A stretch of DNA of 64,000 nucleotides, taken from assembly GCF_013340205.1 (NCBI RefSeq), contig NZ_BJTG01000004.1, positions 310,001-374,000 of the forward strand, read 5' to 3'. Position 1 is the first letter of the stretch; each line of letters begins with the position of its first letter. A program made the position numbers and the translations under genes. Origin of the DNA: Anaeromyxobacter diazotrophicus. GTDB taxonomy: Bacteria > Myxococcota > Myxococcia > Myxococcales > Anaeromyxobacteraceae. Shown one piece after another: positions 2-43,800 of this stretch. The notes beneath the pieces were generated by a model. That model did not search any database. It was not told where the DNA came from and saw nothing but the letters and a program-made list of their open reading frames with translations.

Positions 2-565
2 AAGGCCGGCACCGGCAAGACGCTGCTCGCCATCGCGGCCGGCCTGCAGAAGGCGATGGAGGAGAGCGTCTACGGCAAGCTGCTCGTCTCGCGGCCCATC
101 TTCCCGCTCGGCCGCGACATCGGCTACCTGCCCGGCGACGTGGAGGAGAAGCTCAACCCCTGGATGCAGCCCATCTTCGACAACGTCGAGTACCTCATGA
201 ACCTGTCGCGCTCCGAGAAGAAGCAGGGGCGCGGCTACCACGAGCTCATCGACCTCGGGATCATGGAGATCGAGCCGCTCACCTACATCCGCGGCCGCTC
301 CATCCCGAACCAGTACATCATCGTGGACGAGGCGCAGAACCTCACGCCGCACGAGGTGAAGACCATCATCACCCGCTGCGGCGACGGGACGAAGATCGTC
401 CTCACCGGCGACCCCTACCAGATCGACAACCCGTACGTGGACGCCACCAACAACGGCCTCATCCACGTCGCCAACCGCTTCAAGAACGAGCGGCTGGCCG
501 GGCACGTCACCATGTCGAAGGGCGAGCGCAGCCCGCTGGCCGAGCTGGCGGCGAACCTGCTGTAG
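2..565 (+). CDS. PhoH-like P-loop ATPase, 5' truncated
   Basis: C-terminal 187 residues of a PhoH-family ATPase; the 5' end lies before the window. The visible protein opens inside the Walker A loop (KAGTGKT). About 100 residues later it has a Walker B (IIVDEAQN, about residues 107-113) and a sensor-like LTGDPYQID. These features and the conserved PhoH segment GRDIGYLPGD identify the family. Members are cytoplasmic ATPases, often linked to RNA metabolism or to toxin-antitoxin style PIN-PhoH fusions. Only the ATPase core is visible, so I cannot tell whether a PIN domain precedes it. The TAG stop is embedded in the first copy of a palindromic repeat that continues downstream. Confidence 0.9.
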   Translation, partial: KAGTGKTLLAIAAGLQKAMEESVYGKLLVSRPIFPLGRDIGYLPGDVEEKLNPWMQPIFDNVEYLMNLSRSEKKQGRGYHELIDLGIMEIEPLTYIRGRSIPNQYIIVDEAQNLTPHEVKTIITRCGDGTKIVLTGDPYQIDNPYVDATNNGLIHVANRFKNERLAGHVTMSKGERSPLAELAANLL

Positions 566-586
566 GGGCGGGGGCCTGTCCCCCGC
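563..586 (+). repeat. Dispersed GC palindrome, copy 1
   Basis: A T-A-GGGGCGGGGG arm, a short loop and a CCCCCGC arm form a hairpin that begins on the phoH stop codon. It belongs to the family found at 595-619, 10985-11008, 41680-41703 and 47958-47981. A 21-bp segment starting at 555 recurs at 587, a 32-bp period, so the end of phoH has been tandemly duplicated together with the repeat. Confidence 0.75.
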
Positions 587-594
587 ACCTGCTG

Positions 595-619
595 TAGGGG
601 CGGGGGCTCGCCCCCCGCC
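595..619 (+). repeat. Dispersed GC palindrome, copy 2
   Basis: This is the second tandem copy of the palindrome, with GGCGGGGG and CCCCCGCC arms around a CTCGC loop. It lies between phoH and the DUF493 gene and could act as a weak terminator or RNA 3' stabiliser. There is no T-tract. Confidence 0.75.
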
Positions 620-37501: not shown

Positions 37502-38398
37502 TCAGTAGCTCTTCCCGCCGGAGCTGCCGGTCGAGGTGTCGCCGGAGTTGCCGGACGGCGCGTTGCCGCCGGACGTCGAGCTGGACGAGCTGTCGCCCGA
37601 GTTGCCCGAGGGCGCGTTGGCCGCGCCGTGCGGGGAGTGGTGCATCTTCTTCGAGTGCTTCTTGGTGGTGGTGGTCGAGGAGCTGCTCTCGTCGCTCGAG
37701 CCCGTCGAGCCGGTCGACCCGGCGGTGTCGCTGCTGCCGGTGCCGGTGCCGGTCGCGGTGCCGGTGCCGGTCGAGGTCGTGTCGCTCGTGCTGCCGGTGC
37801 CGCTCGAGGACGACGATGAGCCGCGGTCGAGCGAGCCGGAGGAGCTGGACGAGCCGGAGCCGCCCATCGCGCCCGAGGACGTGATGTCGAGGCTCTTCAC
37901 CTGCAGCGTGTCGCCGGACCCGGAGTAGCTGGCCCGGACCTGGTCGCCCTCCTTGATGTCGTCCATCGAGGCGCGGGAGCCGTCGCGCATCACCTTGGTG
38001 CTGGAGTCGAGCTTCAGCTTGCGATCGCTGCCGGAGAGCGTGAGCTCGTTGTTGCTGCGATCGAACCGTTGCACCTTGCCCGCGAGCGCGTCGAAGTGGC
38101 CGCTCGTGCTGGAGGTGGACGGGTCGGTGGACGCGCTCGCGCCCGAGGTGGTCGACCCGGAGCCGGTGCTCATCGAGCCCGCGCCGGTGCCCATCGAGCC
38201 CGTGCCCATCGAGCCCGCGCTGTTGTCGGTGGTGTTGCCGGGCGAAGCGGTGGAGCTGCCGCTGCCGGTGGTGCCCGTCGCGCTGCCGCTCGTGTCCGTG
38301 TTGCCGGTCGTGCCGGTGGAGCCGCTCTGGGCCTTCGCCTGACCCGAGAGGAGCGCCAGCGCGGCGGCGAGGCCGAAGCCCCAAGCCATCTTCTTCAT
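37502..38398 (-). CDS. Secreted Ser/Thr/Gly-rich low-complexity protein
   Basis: Protein of 298 residues with a signal peptide (MKKMAWGFGLAAALALLSGQAKA). A Gly/Ser/Thr-rich region follows, then a globular core (GHFDALAGKVQRFDRSNNELTLSGSDRKLKLDSSTKVMRDGSRASMDDIKEGDQVRASYSG, about residues 105-165) resembling DUF5666-type secreted domains. The tail is Ser/Gly/Thr-rich with imperfect repeats (NAPSGNSGDSS appears twice) and a Lys/His-rich patch KKHSKKMHH. The function is unknown; disordered secreted or surface proteins of this kind are common in myxobacteria. I chose the ATG at 38398, with AAGGGGG upstream, over the longer ORF start at 38605. Confidence 0.75.
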   Translation of the reverse strand: MKKMAWGFGLAAALALLSGQAKAQSGSTGTTGNTDTSGSATGTTGSGSSTASPGNTTDNSAGSMGTGSMGTGAGSMSTGSGSTTSGASASTDPSTSSTSGHFDALAGKVQRFDRSNNELTLSGSDRKLKLDSSTKVMRDGSRASMDDIKEGDQVRASYSGSGDTLQVKSLDITSSGAMGGSGSSSSSGSLDRGSSSSSSGTGSTSDTTSTGTGTATGTGTGSSDTAGSTGSTGSSDESSSSTTTTKKHSKKMHHSPHGAANAPSGNSGDSSSSSTSGGNAPSGNSGDTSTGSSGGKSY

Positions 38399-38538
38399 GC
38401 GTTTCCCCCTTCGTGGTGGGTGCTGCGTCCTTTCACGGTAAGAACGGGAATCCCCAGGGGACAGAGGCGTTTGCGGTCCACGGCCGCCCCGGCGAGCGCC
38501 TGGCGAACGGGGGGCGCTGCTGTCAGACCGCCTTGCTA

Positions 38539-38555
38539 CCTGAACATGCGAGCAG
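38539..38555. promoter_or_regulatory. Candidate LexA box of the imuA-imuB-dnaE2 operon
   Basis: On the reverse strand, CTGCTCGCATGTTCAGG fits the Myxococcus LexA box as I recall it (CTRHAMRYBYGTTCAGS) at 15 of 17 positions. It lies 24 nt before the imuA ATG. Its position just before an SOS mutagenesis cassette supports the call. Confidence 0.6.
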
Positions 38556-38579
38556 TTATCGTGCTGGAGGGTGACGGGC

Positions 38580-39251
38580 ATGGCCGGGAACGCGCGCGAC
38601 ATCATCGAAGGGCTGCGCGAGCAGATCCGGCGCCTCGAGCGCCGGGCGCCGGCGCGGGCTGGCCACGCGCCGAGCGGCCGGGCGGAGGTGGACGCCCTCC
38701 TCCCGGGCGGCGGGTTTCCCCGCGGCGCGCTCTCCGAGCTCGCGGGCGGCCCCGCCAGCGGGAAGACGGCGGTCGCGCTCTCGGCGCTCGCCGCGGCGAT
38801 GGGCGAGGGGGGGCTCGGCGCCTGGGTGGACGGGCGGGGCGAGCTCTACCCGCCCGCCGCCGCGGCGCTCGGGCTCGACCTCCAGCGGCTGCTCGTGGTG
38901 CGGCCGGCCGGCGCCACGGCCGATCCCTGGAGCGCGCTGTGGGCGGCCGAGGCGCTCCTGGGGAGCGGGGCCTTCGAGGCGGTGGTGCTCGACGTGCCGG
39001 CGGCTGGCCAGGCGCGCGCGCCGGGCGGGGCGGCGATCGAGGCGCTGCTGCAGCGGCTGCGCGCGGCGGCGGAGAAGGGCGGGGCGGTCGCGCTCTGGCT
39101 CGGGGTGCCCGGCGGCCCGCGCGTCCCGGCGGCGCTCCGGCTCGACCTCTCCGCCGGGCCTCGCGGGACGGAGGTGCGGCGCGCCTTCGCCCGCGGCGCG
39201 GCGGAGGGGCCGCCGCGCGCGGCGCCCCCCGGGGCGAGCCATGCAGCTTGA
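38580..39251 (+). CDS. imuA: ImuA (RecA-like SOS mutagenesis protein)
   Basis: Protein of 223 residues with a RecA-like P-loop region (ELAGGPASGKTAVALSALAAA, about residue 58) and downstream segments typical of ImuA (GAWVDGRGELYPPAAAALGLDLQRLLVVRP). It belongs to the imuA-imuB-dnaE2 translesion cassette. ImuA is thought to support the mutasome; its exact role is less clear than that of ImuB and DnaE2. I chose the ATG at 38580, with GGAGG 9 nt upstream, rather than the GTG at 38571 that directly follows the ribosome binding site. It overlaps imuB by 11 nt. Confidence 0.85.
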   Translation: MAGNARDIIEGLREQIRRLERRAPARAGHAPSGRAEVDALLPGGGFPRGALSELAGGPASGKTAVALSALAAAMGEGGLGAWVDGRGELYPPAAAALGLDLQRLLVVRPAGATADPWSALWAAEALLGSGAFEAVVLDVPAAGQARAPGGAAIEALLQRLRAAAEKGGAVALWLGVPGGPRVPAALRLDLSAGPRGTEVRRAFARGAAEGPPRAAPPGASHAA

Positions 39252-40812
39252 GCTCGGCGTGCTCGCCGCGCCGGCGCCGGCGGCGAGCGGCCCGCGCGTC
39301 CTCGCGCTGTGGGCGCCCGACCTCCCGCTGCAGCGGCTCCTCCGCGCCCGCGAGGCGGCGGGGTCCGGCCGGGGCGGGCCGCGCCCGCCGCTGGCGGTGG
39401 AGCGGGAGGGGCGGGTGGTCGCGTGCGAGGCCGAGGCGCGCGCCCGCGGGGTCCGGCCGGGCGACGCGCTGGTGCAGGCGCGGGCCGCCTGCGCCGGGCT
39501 GGAGGTGGTCCCCGCCGACGAGGCGGCCGACCGCGCCGCGCTGGAGGGGCTCGCCGAGGCGCTCCTCGCCCTCGCTCCGGCGGTCGAGGTGGCGCTCCCG
39601 GACGCCCTCCTCCTCGACGCCAGCGGCGCGCACCTACTCGGCGCCGGCGCGGCGGGCGAGCGGGCGCTCCTCGAGCGCGCGGTGGCCGTCGCCGACGAGC
39701 TCGGGCTGCGGGTGAGGGCGGCCCTCGCCCGGGGGCGCGGGCCGGCGCGCGCGCTCGCCCGCCACGGGCGCGGCGCGCCCATCGCGGCGGCGGGCGACGC
39801 CACGGGCGCGCTGGGGCCGCTCCCGCTGGCCGCGCTCGAGCTCCCGGCCGCCATGGCCGAGCGGCTGGCCGCGCTGGGCCTGCGGCAGGTGCAGGACCTG
39901 GCGCGCCTGCCGGTCGAGGCGCTGGCGCACCGCTTCGGCGCGGCCGGGCTCGCCGCCTGGCGCCTCGCGCACGGCGACGACCCGTCGCCGCTCGTGCCCC
40001 ACGTCCCGGCGCGCCTCCCCGAGGAGCGGCTCGAGCTGGAGGCGCCGCTCGAGAGCGCGGAGCCGCTCCTGTTCGCGCTGAAGCGCCTCGCCGATCGGCT
40101 GGCAGCGCGGCTGGCGGGGCGCGGGCTGGGGGCGACGCGGCTCGCGCTCGCGCTCCGCCTCGATCCCGCCGGCGAGGAGCGGCTCGAGCTGGCGCTGGCG
40201 CTCCCCTCCGCCGCCGCCGCGCGGTGGCTCCTCGTGCTGCGCGAGCGGCTCGGCGCGCTGCGGCTGCCCGGCGCGGTGAGCGCCGTGACGCTGGCGGTGG
40301 CCGAGGCGGCGCCCGCCGCGCGCGAGCAGCTCGCCCTCGGCGATCGCCCCGAGCAGCTCGCGGCGCTCGAGACGGTGCTGACCCGGCTCGCGGCGCGGCT
40401 CGGCGACGAGGCGCTCTTCGCGGCCCGGCTGGCCGATCGCCACCGGCCGGAGGCCGCCTACGCGCCGGCCGCGTTCACCGGGAAGCCGCCCGCGGCGCGG
40501 GGCGGCCGGCCCCCGCCCCCGGCGGAGCCGGCCGAGGGCTGCGCGGCCCCGGCCGAGCGCCCGACCCGGCTCCTCGCCCACCCCGAGCCGCTCGTCGCGC
40601 TGGGCGAGGGCGGGCGGCTCGCGGCGGTGCGCGCCTTCGGCCGGACGCTGCGCGTGCTGGCGCTCTCCCCCGCCGAGCGCCTCGCCGGCGAGTGGTGGAC
40701 GGAGCCGTTCGACCGCGACTACCACCGGGCGCGGCTGGAGGGGCTGGGGGACTGCTGGATCTTCCGCGACGCCGGCGACGGCCGGCTCTGGCTGCACGGC
40801 TTCTTCGACTGA
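39241..40812 (+). CDS. imuB: ImuB (inactive Y-family polymerase)
   Basis: Protein of 523 residues with a Y-family polymerase layout (LALWAPDLPLQRLL at the N-terminus, LLLDASGAHLLG, GLRVRAALARGRGPARALARHG, AMAERLAALGLRQVQDLARLP). The acidic catalytic residues of active DinB-type enzymes are not retained (LDASGAH where DinB has the conserved Asp-Glu pair). This agrees with the known non-catalytic scaffolding role of ImuB. The C-terminus (about 460-523, RAFGRTLRVLALSPAERLAGEWW) carries the segment common to this family. It links the beta clamp, ImuA and DnaE2. Confidence 0.9.
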   Translation: MQLELGVLAAPAPAASGPRVLALWAPDLPLQRLLRAREAAGSGRGGPRPPLAVEREGRVVACEAEARARGVRPGDALVQARAACAGLEVVPADEAADRAALEGLAEALLALAPAVEVALPDALLLDASGAHLLGAGAAGERALLERAVAVADELGLRVRAALARGRGPARALARHGRGAPIAAAGDATGALGPLPLAALELPAAMAERLAALGLRQVQDLARLPVEALAHRFGAAGLAAWRLAHGDDPSPLVPHVPARLPEERLELEAPLESAEPLLFALKRLADRLAARLAGRGLGATRLALALRLDPAGEERLELALALPSAAAARWLLVLRERLGALRLPGAVSAVTLAVAEAAPAAREQLALGDRPEQLAALETVLTRLAARLGDEALFAARLADRHRPEAAYAPAAFTGKPPAARGGRPPPPAEPAEGCAAPAERPTRLLAHPEPLVALGEGGRLAAVRAFGRTLRVLALSPAERLAGEWWTEPFDRDYHRARLEGLGDCWIFRDAGDGRLWLHGFFD

Positions 40813-40822
40813 GAGCGCCCCG

Positions 40823-43800
40823 ATGGCCCCCCTGCGCTACGCCGAGCTGCGCTCCAAGTCCTGCTTCTCCTTCCTCCGCGGGGCGAGCCAGCCCGAGGAG
40901 CTCGTCGGCTGCGCCGCCGAGCTGGGCCTCTCCGCGCTCGGCCTCGCCGACGTGAACGGGCTCTACGGCGCCGTCCGGGCCCACGCCGAGGCCGCGCGCC
41001 GGGGGCTCCCGCTCGTGGTCGGGGCCGAGCTCTCCTGCCTGGGCCTCTCGCCCGGCCCGTTCCCGACGGCCCCGCTCGTGCTCCTGGCGATGGACCGCGA
41101 GGGCTACGCCGGGCTGTGCCGCCTCCTCTCCGAGGCGCACTGCGGCGCGCCGCCGGGCGGGGAGGGCGAGGCGCCGGCTCGGCGCCCGGCGGTCGATCTC
41201 CCGTTCGCGAAGGTGGCCGAGCGGGCGCGCGGCCTGTTCGCGCTCTACCCGGGGACGGACCCGGCCGCCGCAGAGCGGCTGCGCGACGCCTTCGGGCGCC
41301 GGCTGGCGCTCGCGGTGGAGCGGCACCACGTGGCGGGCGAGGAGGCGCGCATCGCGGCCGCGCGCAGCCTCGCGGCCCGGCTCGGCCTCGCGGTGGCGGT
41401 GACGAACGACGCGCACACCCACGACCGGGGCCGGCAGCCGCTCCAGGACGTCCTCACCTGCATCCGCCTCGGGACGACGCTCGACCGGGCTGGGCGGCGG
41501 CTCTTCCCGAACGCCGAGCGGACGCTCAAGGGGCCGGAGGAGATGGCGCAGCTGTGGCCCGACTTCCCCGAGGGGCTCGAGGCGGCCGCCGCCATCGCCG
41601 AGGCCTGCCGCTTCCGGCTCGACGAGATCCGGGGGGAGCACCCGTTGCCGCCGGTGCTGGCAAGCCCGGGGGAGGCTCGTAGGGCGGGGGCTTGCCCCCC
41701 GCCGGCGTGGCGGGCAAACCCGACCTCGACCTCGACCTCGACCACGACCGCGACCACGACCACGACCGCGACCACGACCGCGACCGCGACCACGACCACG
41801 ACCTCGACCGCGACCGCGACCGCGACCGCGACGGGACTCCTCACCGGCATGCCGCTCCTCCGCGCCCTGGTCGAGGACGGCGCCCGCTGGCGCTGGAAGG
41901 GCGAGCCTCCCGAGGATGTCCGGCGGCAGATCGCGAAGGAGCTCGCGCTGGTCGAGCAGCTCGGGTACGCGAGCTACTTCCTCACGGTCTGGGACATCGT
42001 CCGGTTCGCGCGCGAGCGCGGCATCCTGTGCCAGGGCCGGGGCAGCGCCGCCAACTCGGTCCTCTGCTACTGCCTCGGGATCACCTCCATCGACCCGGTG
42101 CGGATGGGGCTCCTCTTCGAGCGCTTCATCTCGGTCGAGCGCGGCGAGCCGCCCGACATCGACGTCGACTTCGAGCACGAGCGGCGCGAGGAGGTGCTCC
42201 AGTACGTCTACCAGCGCTACGGCCGCGACCACGCCGGCATGGTCTGCGAGGTCATCGGCTACCGCGGCAAGTCGGCGCTGCGCGACGTGGGCAAGGCGCT
42301 CGGGCTCGCGCCCGGGCAGCTCGACCGGCTCGCCAAGCTCCTCGGATCCTACGAGGACCTCGCGCAGGTGACGCCGGAGCTGCTCGCCCAGGCGGGCCTC
42401 GACGCGAAGGGCTCGCCCGCGGTCCGGCAGACGCTGCGGCTCGCCGGCGAGCTGCAGGGGTTCCCGCGCCACCTCTCCATCCACGTGGGCGGCTTCGTCG
42501 TCACCCGCCGGCCGCTCTGCGAGACGGCGCCGCTCGAGCCGGCGGCGATGGCGGGGCGCACCATCCTGCAGTGGGACAAGGACGACATCGCCGAGCTCGG
42601 GCTGCTCAAGGTCGACCTGCTCGGCCTCGGCATGCTGACCGCGCTCTCGCGCTGCCTGAAGCTCCTCGCCGCCCACCGGCCCGCGCCCGCCCTGCCCACG
42701 GACACCCCGTGGCCGGAGACCCTGGCCGAGATCCCGGCCGAGGACCCCGCCGTCTACGAGATGGTCTCGCGCGCCGACACCGTCGGCGTGTTCCAGGTCG
42801 AGTCGCGGGCGCAGATGTCGCTCCTGCCGCGGCTCAAGCCGCGCTGCTTCTACGACCTCGTCATCTCGGTGGCCATCATCCGGCCGGGGCCGATCCAGGG
42901 CGGCATGGTCCACCCGTTCCTGCGCCGCCGCGACGGCCTCGAGCCGGTGCGGTACCCGTACCCGCCGCTCGAGCCGGTGCTGGCGCGGACGCTCGGGGTG
43001 CCGCTCTTCCAGGAGCAGGCGATGCGGCTGGCGGTGGTGGCGGCGGGGTTCACGCCGGGCGAGGCGGACGAGCTGCGGCGCGTGATGACCCACAAGCGCT
43101 CGCAGGAGCGGATGGAGGCCATGCGGGCGCGCCTGGTGGCCGGGATGGCCGAGCGGCACATCCCCCGCCCGGACGCCGAGGCCATCTACCAGCAGCTGCT
43201 CGGCTTCGCCGGCTACGGCTTCCCCGAGTCGCACGCCGCCTCGTTCGCGCTCCTCGTCTACGCCTCGGCCTGGCTGAAGCGGTACCACCCGGCCGCCTTC
43301 GCCTGCGCGCTGCTGGACAGCCAGCCGATGGGCTTCTACGCCCCGCACACGCTCGTCGAGGACGCCAAGCGCGCCGGGGTGGAGGTGCGCGGGGTGGACG
43401 TGGTCCGGTCCGGCTGGGAGTGCACGCTGGAGGGGGCCGAGGCGGGCGCCGCCGCGCGGGAGGGGGAGCGGCCGGCGCTGCGGCTCGGGCTCGCGACGGT
43501 CCAGGGGCTGCCCCGGGCGGTGGGCGAGGGCGTCCTCGCCGCGCGCCGCGCTCGCCCCTTCGGCTCCATGGCGGACCTCGCCCGCCGCGGCGGGCTCTCG
43601 CCGGCCTGGCTCGAGCGGCTCGCCCAGGCCGGCGCGCTGCGCGGCTTCGAGGTGCAGCGGCGCCGGGCGCTGTGGAGCGCGCTCGCGGTCGGCCCCGCGG
43701 CGCGCGAGGGCGATCTCCTCGCCGGCGCGCCGGTCGAGGAGCCCCCGGCCGGCCTCCCGCCCGCGAGCGCCTCCGAGGAGGTGGCGGCCGACTACGCCTC

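Follow-up and report, generated by a model that had tools for sequence, protein, structure and literature searches.

The window, a stretch of 64,000 nucleotides from Anaeromyxobacter diazotrophicus, carries a gene for the error-prone DNA polymerase DnaE2 in which a palindromic repeat and a hexamer tract lie between the PHP and the polymerase parts (Table 1). The dnaE2 product scored 1284.9 bits with the NCBIfam model NF004225 (error-prone DNA polymerase; cut-off 939), and Pfam delineated PHP, DNA_pol3_alpha (from residue 346), finger, HHH_6 and OB domains, all of them intact. Immediately upstream lie the imuA-like and then the imuB-like gene, the neighbourhood that characterises DnaE2/ImuC. 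For the imuA-like gene Pfam RecA was over its cut-off (59.4 bits) and the top NCBIfam model, ImuA_translesion, remained under its cut-off of 150 (74.9 bits); the imuB-like gene matched Pfam IMS (38.9 bits) and, barely over the cut-off, IMS_C, with zero NCBIfam models over cut-off. A Ser/Thr/Gly-rich frame on the minus strand (37502–38605), with several degenerate tandem repeats, precedes imuA; its gene call is uncertain. Comparison of dnaE2 without the linker (1050 codons) with that of G001, the only other genome of the genus compared, gave a dN/dS of 0.21 and, judging from this ratio, the gene outside the linker is under purifying selection.

Table 1. Features of the dnaE2 locus; positions are those of the window.
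Feature	Positions	Strand	Basis or remark
imuA-like gene (RecA-like)	38571–39251	+	Pfam and NCBIfam
imuB-like gene (Y-family polymerase-like)	39241–40812	+	Pfam IMS and position
dnaE2 (imuC), error-prone DNA polymerase, 1119 aa	40823–44182	+	NCBIfam and Pfam
DnaE2 linker, residues 278–344, after conserved motif GEHPLPP	41654–41854	+	mostly predicted disordered
GTAG-tagged REP GTAGGGCGGGGGCTTGCCCCCCGCC, in frame as RRAGACPPP	41679–41703	+	genome copies, fold, frame
18 perfect CGACCN units, encoding Thr-Ser/Thr/Ala	41721–41828	+	followed by CGACGG

Counted after GEHPLPP, the linker has 67 residues. For comparison among proteins its length was taken from the E of EHPLPP to the L following M-x in the M-x-LL motif, a stretch of 74 residues in this protein. 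The same stretch is exactly 16 residues long in 77 of 79 DnaE2 proteins from outside the family, and 15 and 20 in the remaining two (the set comprised the best 80 of at least 594, one of which, L006, has the linker of G014, leaving 79 outside the family). Across 23 DnaE2 loci of Anaeromyxobacter's family, all with the frame checked and with one genome per species, it ranges from 19 to 157 residues, about eightfold between species; G009 (66% complete, no match) was left out, and the lengths for G013 and G021 come only from this measure. The preliminary description had the insertion replacing a normal short linker; in much of the family, however, linkers are long and variable and there is no fixed short one to be replaced. 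An alignment of the 23 family proteins, of which G006, G007, G010 and G023 have extra N-terminal residues and G012, G013 and G020 are partial, gave a length range of 138 at the linker and of 14 at the second most variable place. In this alignment the linker is the one strongly variable segment of the family's DnaE2.

An AlphaFold model built on a 26-sequence alignment (mean pLDDT 82.1) showed pLDDT values below 50 at residues 278–338 and elsewhere only in short stretches, while block means directly past this segment are near 90; the linker is thus predicted to be disordered. By eye, the piece SSP.Q ... LRTT is alike in the genera g2 and g6, and part of the linker may be under selection there.

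The palindrome starts at 41679, one base before the start at 41680 given in the preliminary description, which was correct in placing both a palindrome and 18 CGACCN units here. It also rightly described the insertion, a dispersed palindrome plus tract, as lying in frame between the PHP and polymerase parts: the frame is open throughout. Folded alone, the repeat forms an 8-bp stem with a 5-base loop and leaves GTAG unpaired (−17.3 kcal/mol). The available text of PMC3733652 defines GTAG REPs by an unpaired GTAG beside a stem of 5–13 bp with a loop of 2–20 bases. The dnaE2 palindrome is a GTAG REP. With up to three mismatches, 73 copies of the 25-base REP were found in its own genome, against one for a reversed-pattern control. 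Under the same threshold there are 142 copies in G001, 78 in G019 and 0–6 in each of the 21 further family genomes searched. Within the window, the palindrome core GGCGGGGGCNNGCCCCC was found 12 times with up to two mismatches, against 4.7 expected, a count in which some are the same site on both strands or are not copies of this REP. Sixty of the 70 own-genome copies examined (of 73) were not scored as coding and are thus mostly intergenic by a crude codon-usage test, which was trained on window genes and misreads low-complexity genes.

Window positions 562–618 hold a pair of GTAG repeats that point the same way and are separated by 32 bases. The first provides a TAG stop (563–565) to a 187-codon open frame with a strong coding score; supplying TAG stops is a known habit of GTAG REPs according to the available text of PMC3733652.

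A Y1_Tnp transposase over the cut-off was not found in the own genome, where there is a single match under the cut-off, and the genome thus offers no evident source for its REP copies. G001 has a strong Y1_Tnp match, which was considered as a partner of this REP but is not supported as one: there is no REP within six mismatches in its 3.4-kb locus. In G019 a Y1_Tnp match shares its locus with three GTAG repeats (3–5 mismatches).

The dnaE2 gene is one of several REP-tagged genes. Ten of the 70 own-genome copies examined are candidates for in-frame REPs, in six kinds of genes. In RecQ (L248) the REP covers residues 469–477 of the scanned piece, between the Zn-binding domain (ending at 440) and HRDC (starting at 487). 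An in-frame REP is also carried by five paralogous HNH nucleases (L225, L232, L249, L291, L298); in the one scanned with Pfam it lies between the DUF222 and HNH matches. The in-frame REP of a LarC-like protein falls within the span of its single Pfam match, so that not all in-frame REPs lie outside domains. The list is completed by an Hsp70-like protein and by another whose HhH-GPD match is under the Pfam cut-off. In G001, three in-frame REPs were found among 51 copies examined (of 142), in DnaE2, in RecQ (L328, named by its likeness to the RecQ of A. diazotrophicus) and in a protein with marginal methyltransferase matches.

Two side observations concern these genes. In the five HNH-type genes the REP sits at the identical place and points the same way, which would fit the copying of a gene that was already tagged. 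RecQ is REP-tagged in both species in about the same linker, with different reading frames.

Four of the six kinds of tagged genes look DNA-acting, namely DnaE2, RecQ, the HNH nuclease and the glycosylase-like protein (this last with its match under the Pfam cut-off), and in the available text of PMC3733652 intragenic REPs often belong to genes for replication and repair, among them DnaE2. This bias, seen in both cases, is not predicted by a purely neutral account. It might be that selection favours inserts of REPs or other repeats in repair genes such as DnaE2 and RecQ through a putative effect on repair and mutation rate, as is speculated in the available text of PMC3733652; in each of the two genomes of the genus, DnaE2 as well as RecQ carries the REP. 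We nevertheless regard such selection as unlikely, since both in DnaE2 and in the RecQ of A. diazotrophicus the insertion is between domains.

In translation the hexamer tract reads, after one Pro, as Thr alternating with Ser, Thr or Ala, an alternation that had been read before. The sixth base of the 18 units is T in 4, A in 6, G in 8 and C in none, also in agreement with the earlier reading. The window has 20 four-unit matches with up to three mismatches (17 of these overlap inside the tract), against 0.16 expected from shuffled sequence; a chance origin of the tract is excluded. That its length is an artefact of assembly is very improbable. Tandem repeats are difficult to assemble, but this tract is only 108 bases long, its units differ and the frame is preserved; moreover, tracts of the same kind occur in dnaE2 of other assemblies, including the single-contig G007.

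In the own genome the six-unit CGACCN pattern matched 190 times, overlaps included; the control gave no match. It is present in 12 of 24 family genomes and absent from the other 12. The heaviest loads are those of G007 (1155 overlapping six-unit matches) and G010 (900), and the uneven load among family genomes could reflect differing repair or slippage. In A. diazotrophicus the stretches examined, which cover the first 100 of the 190 matches, hold 28 arrays with a minimum of six units; the codon-usage test took 11 of them for coding sequence and 17 for non-coding. CGACCN (ACCNCG) is a genome-wide microsatellite. The preliminary description treated the tract as special to dnaE2; many CGACCN arrays elsewhere in the own genome rule this out, and neither is it the longest, another array of the genome having 21 perfect units.

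The sixth base varies similarly in coding and non-coding arrays (L194–L213 in A. diazotrophicus and L346–L365 in G007 are examples), the arrays having been seeded on perfect CGACC, so that the apparent conservation of positions 1–5 is biased by construction. In dnaE2 the sixth base is the first codon position: residues vary while third positions are fixed, the opposite of what selection on the protein only would give. The variation at this base points to a property at the DNA level. The avoidance of Pro suggested earlier is not supported: over the 26 merged arrays examined, C occupies the sixth position in 43 of 350 cases, which makes the probability of zero C in 18 units about 0.08, not a significant value, and the DnaE2 tracts of the relatives G006, G007, G010 and G018 include Pro. 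A different bias was seen for A, which gives a Thr codon and occurs at the sixth position in 6 of 18 units of the dnaE2 tract; for the remaining arrays the figure is about 12 of 332 (Fisher p 1e-4). This excess is unexplained by passive sharing of one microsatellite.

In the family the same linker holds repeats of several kinds. In G001 the REP is found in the same DnaE2 linker in the opposite orientation, with two mismatches. In the G007 linker another palindrome (10-bp arms) is present twice, on either side of a Thr-Pro/Thr-Ala tract; this palindrome has 21 matches in the G007 genome. A third dispersed palindromic repeat is seen in the linker of G012, with seven matches in that genome and four in G011. 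The fourth, in G022, is weaker, its exact arms being just 7 bp long; it has two matches in G022 and others in five genomes (G005, G006, G009, G010, G018). A palindrome with 10-bp arms in the linker of G019 was left out of this count. With A. diazotrophicus and G001 counted as one event, at least four insertions are to be assumed for the palindromes. Consecutive ACCNCG units in DnaE2 number 22 in G007, 22 and 3 in G010, 11 in G006 and 6 in G018; in the DnaE2 tree, Thr-X tracts occur on three branches, those of A. diazotrophicus itself, of the group of G006, G010 and G007, and of the G018 group. A single origin of these tracts with later losses is possible from the tree. On the sequence evidence, the DnaE2 linker of this family has been filled more than once by unrelated repeats.

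It is conceivable that the tract is a contingency element for tuning length, strains differing in the number of hexamers and linker length altering the activity of the polymerase. The six-base unit preserves the frame, so that, as noted earlier, the number of hexamers could change without a frameshift; Thr-X tracts are found in DnaE2 of three lineages, and linker length differs about eightfold between species. We think this improbable, however, in view of the similar arrays at many places, 17 of the 28 examined being scored as non-coding, of the like variation of the sixth base in coding and non-coding arrays, and of the long linkers without a Thr-X hexamer tract in several family members (e.g. 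G002, G003, G004, G005, G008 and G023). Coding simple-sequence contingency repeats consist of tandem units within a gene whose number can change. The dnaE2 tract likewise consists of tandem units in a gene and could change in number; in contrast to those repeats, its six-base unit is unable to switch the frame.

The reading we favour, with a probability of roughly three in four, is that of a permissive linker which accumulates genomic repeats and keeps them as near-neutral passengers. The loop from PHP to the polymerase core would be long, disordered and dispensable in the family's DnaE2 and would tolerate almost any in-frame sequence; because of this tolerance it would repeatedly have kept inserts of the short repeats active in each genome. 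The kept inserts would be a GTAG-type REP in the genus Anaeromyxobacter and other dispersed palindromes in G007, G012 and G022, and the genome-wide CGACCN microsatellite would have expanded in the linkers of three lineages. In A. diazotrophicus, a REP was presumably copied into the linker and the CGACCN array probably grew through slippage, while inserts disrupting frame or fold would have been lost to selection. The repeats would survive as passengers because the frame is kept and because they are located outside the folded domains, and their effect on the polymerase is likely to be close to neutral. Myxococcus xanthus survives without dnaE2, as the available part of PMC5285347 reports, and such dispensability for survival would ease the tolerance of inserts. 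A tuning role for the linker is no more than possible.

The closest known system is that of the GTAG REPs in genes described in 2013 (PMC3733652). As far as its available text goes, it shares with the present case the GTAG tag, the short hairpin and the dispersed, mostly intergenic distribution, as well as in-frame occurrence in repair genes, DnaE2 of other bacteria being one of them. The same text describes a recB insertion at about the same site in two Xanthomonas species and, for other genes, differing sites; its main text, to the extent available, gave no match for Anaeromyxobacter or Myxococc and no hexamer tract. Palindromic repeats in frame inside proteins are also described for Rickettsia in that text, where they are other sequences, of the CGTC type and the longer RPE-1. 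In the present case, by contrast with Rickettsia, a microsatellite joins the palindrome and several unrelated repeats share one site. DnaE2 has the features of a REP- or RPE-tagged protein, in that the frame is kept and the protein is otherwise conserved.

In our literature search, judged from the search records, no report was found of a shared linker hotspot or of a hexamer tract in DnaE2, and nothing relevant on hexanucleotide or simple sequence repeats or REPs of Anaeromyxobacter. The combination had been held to be undescribed for DnaE2; this stands for the hexamer tract, whereas REPs in DnaE2 are published in the available text of PMC3733652. REPs inside DnaE2 are already known from other bacteria, and the part worth keeping is the recurrent filling of one linker in one family.

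A bolder idea is that the family's DnaE2 linker, together with the RecQ linker in the genus, is a preferred site of landing and retention as inserts tune an error-prone or repair enzyme, so that repeats and mutation machinery shape each other. We hold this to be rather unlikely. With several unrelated repeats in one joint of one protein, in related species, DnaE2 offers a clear case in which to ask directly if disordered linkers simply absorb selfish DNA in a neutral way or can give rise to new functions. DnaE2 makes mutations, and any effect of linker length would therefore feed back on genome change.
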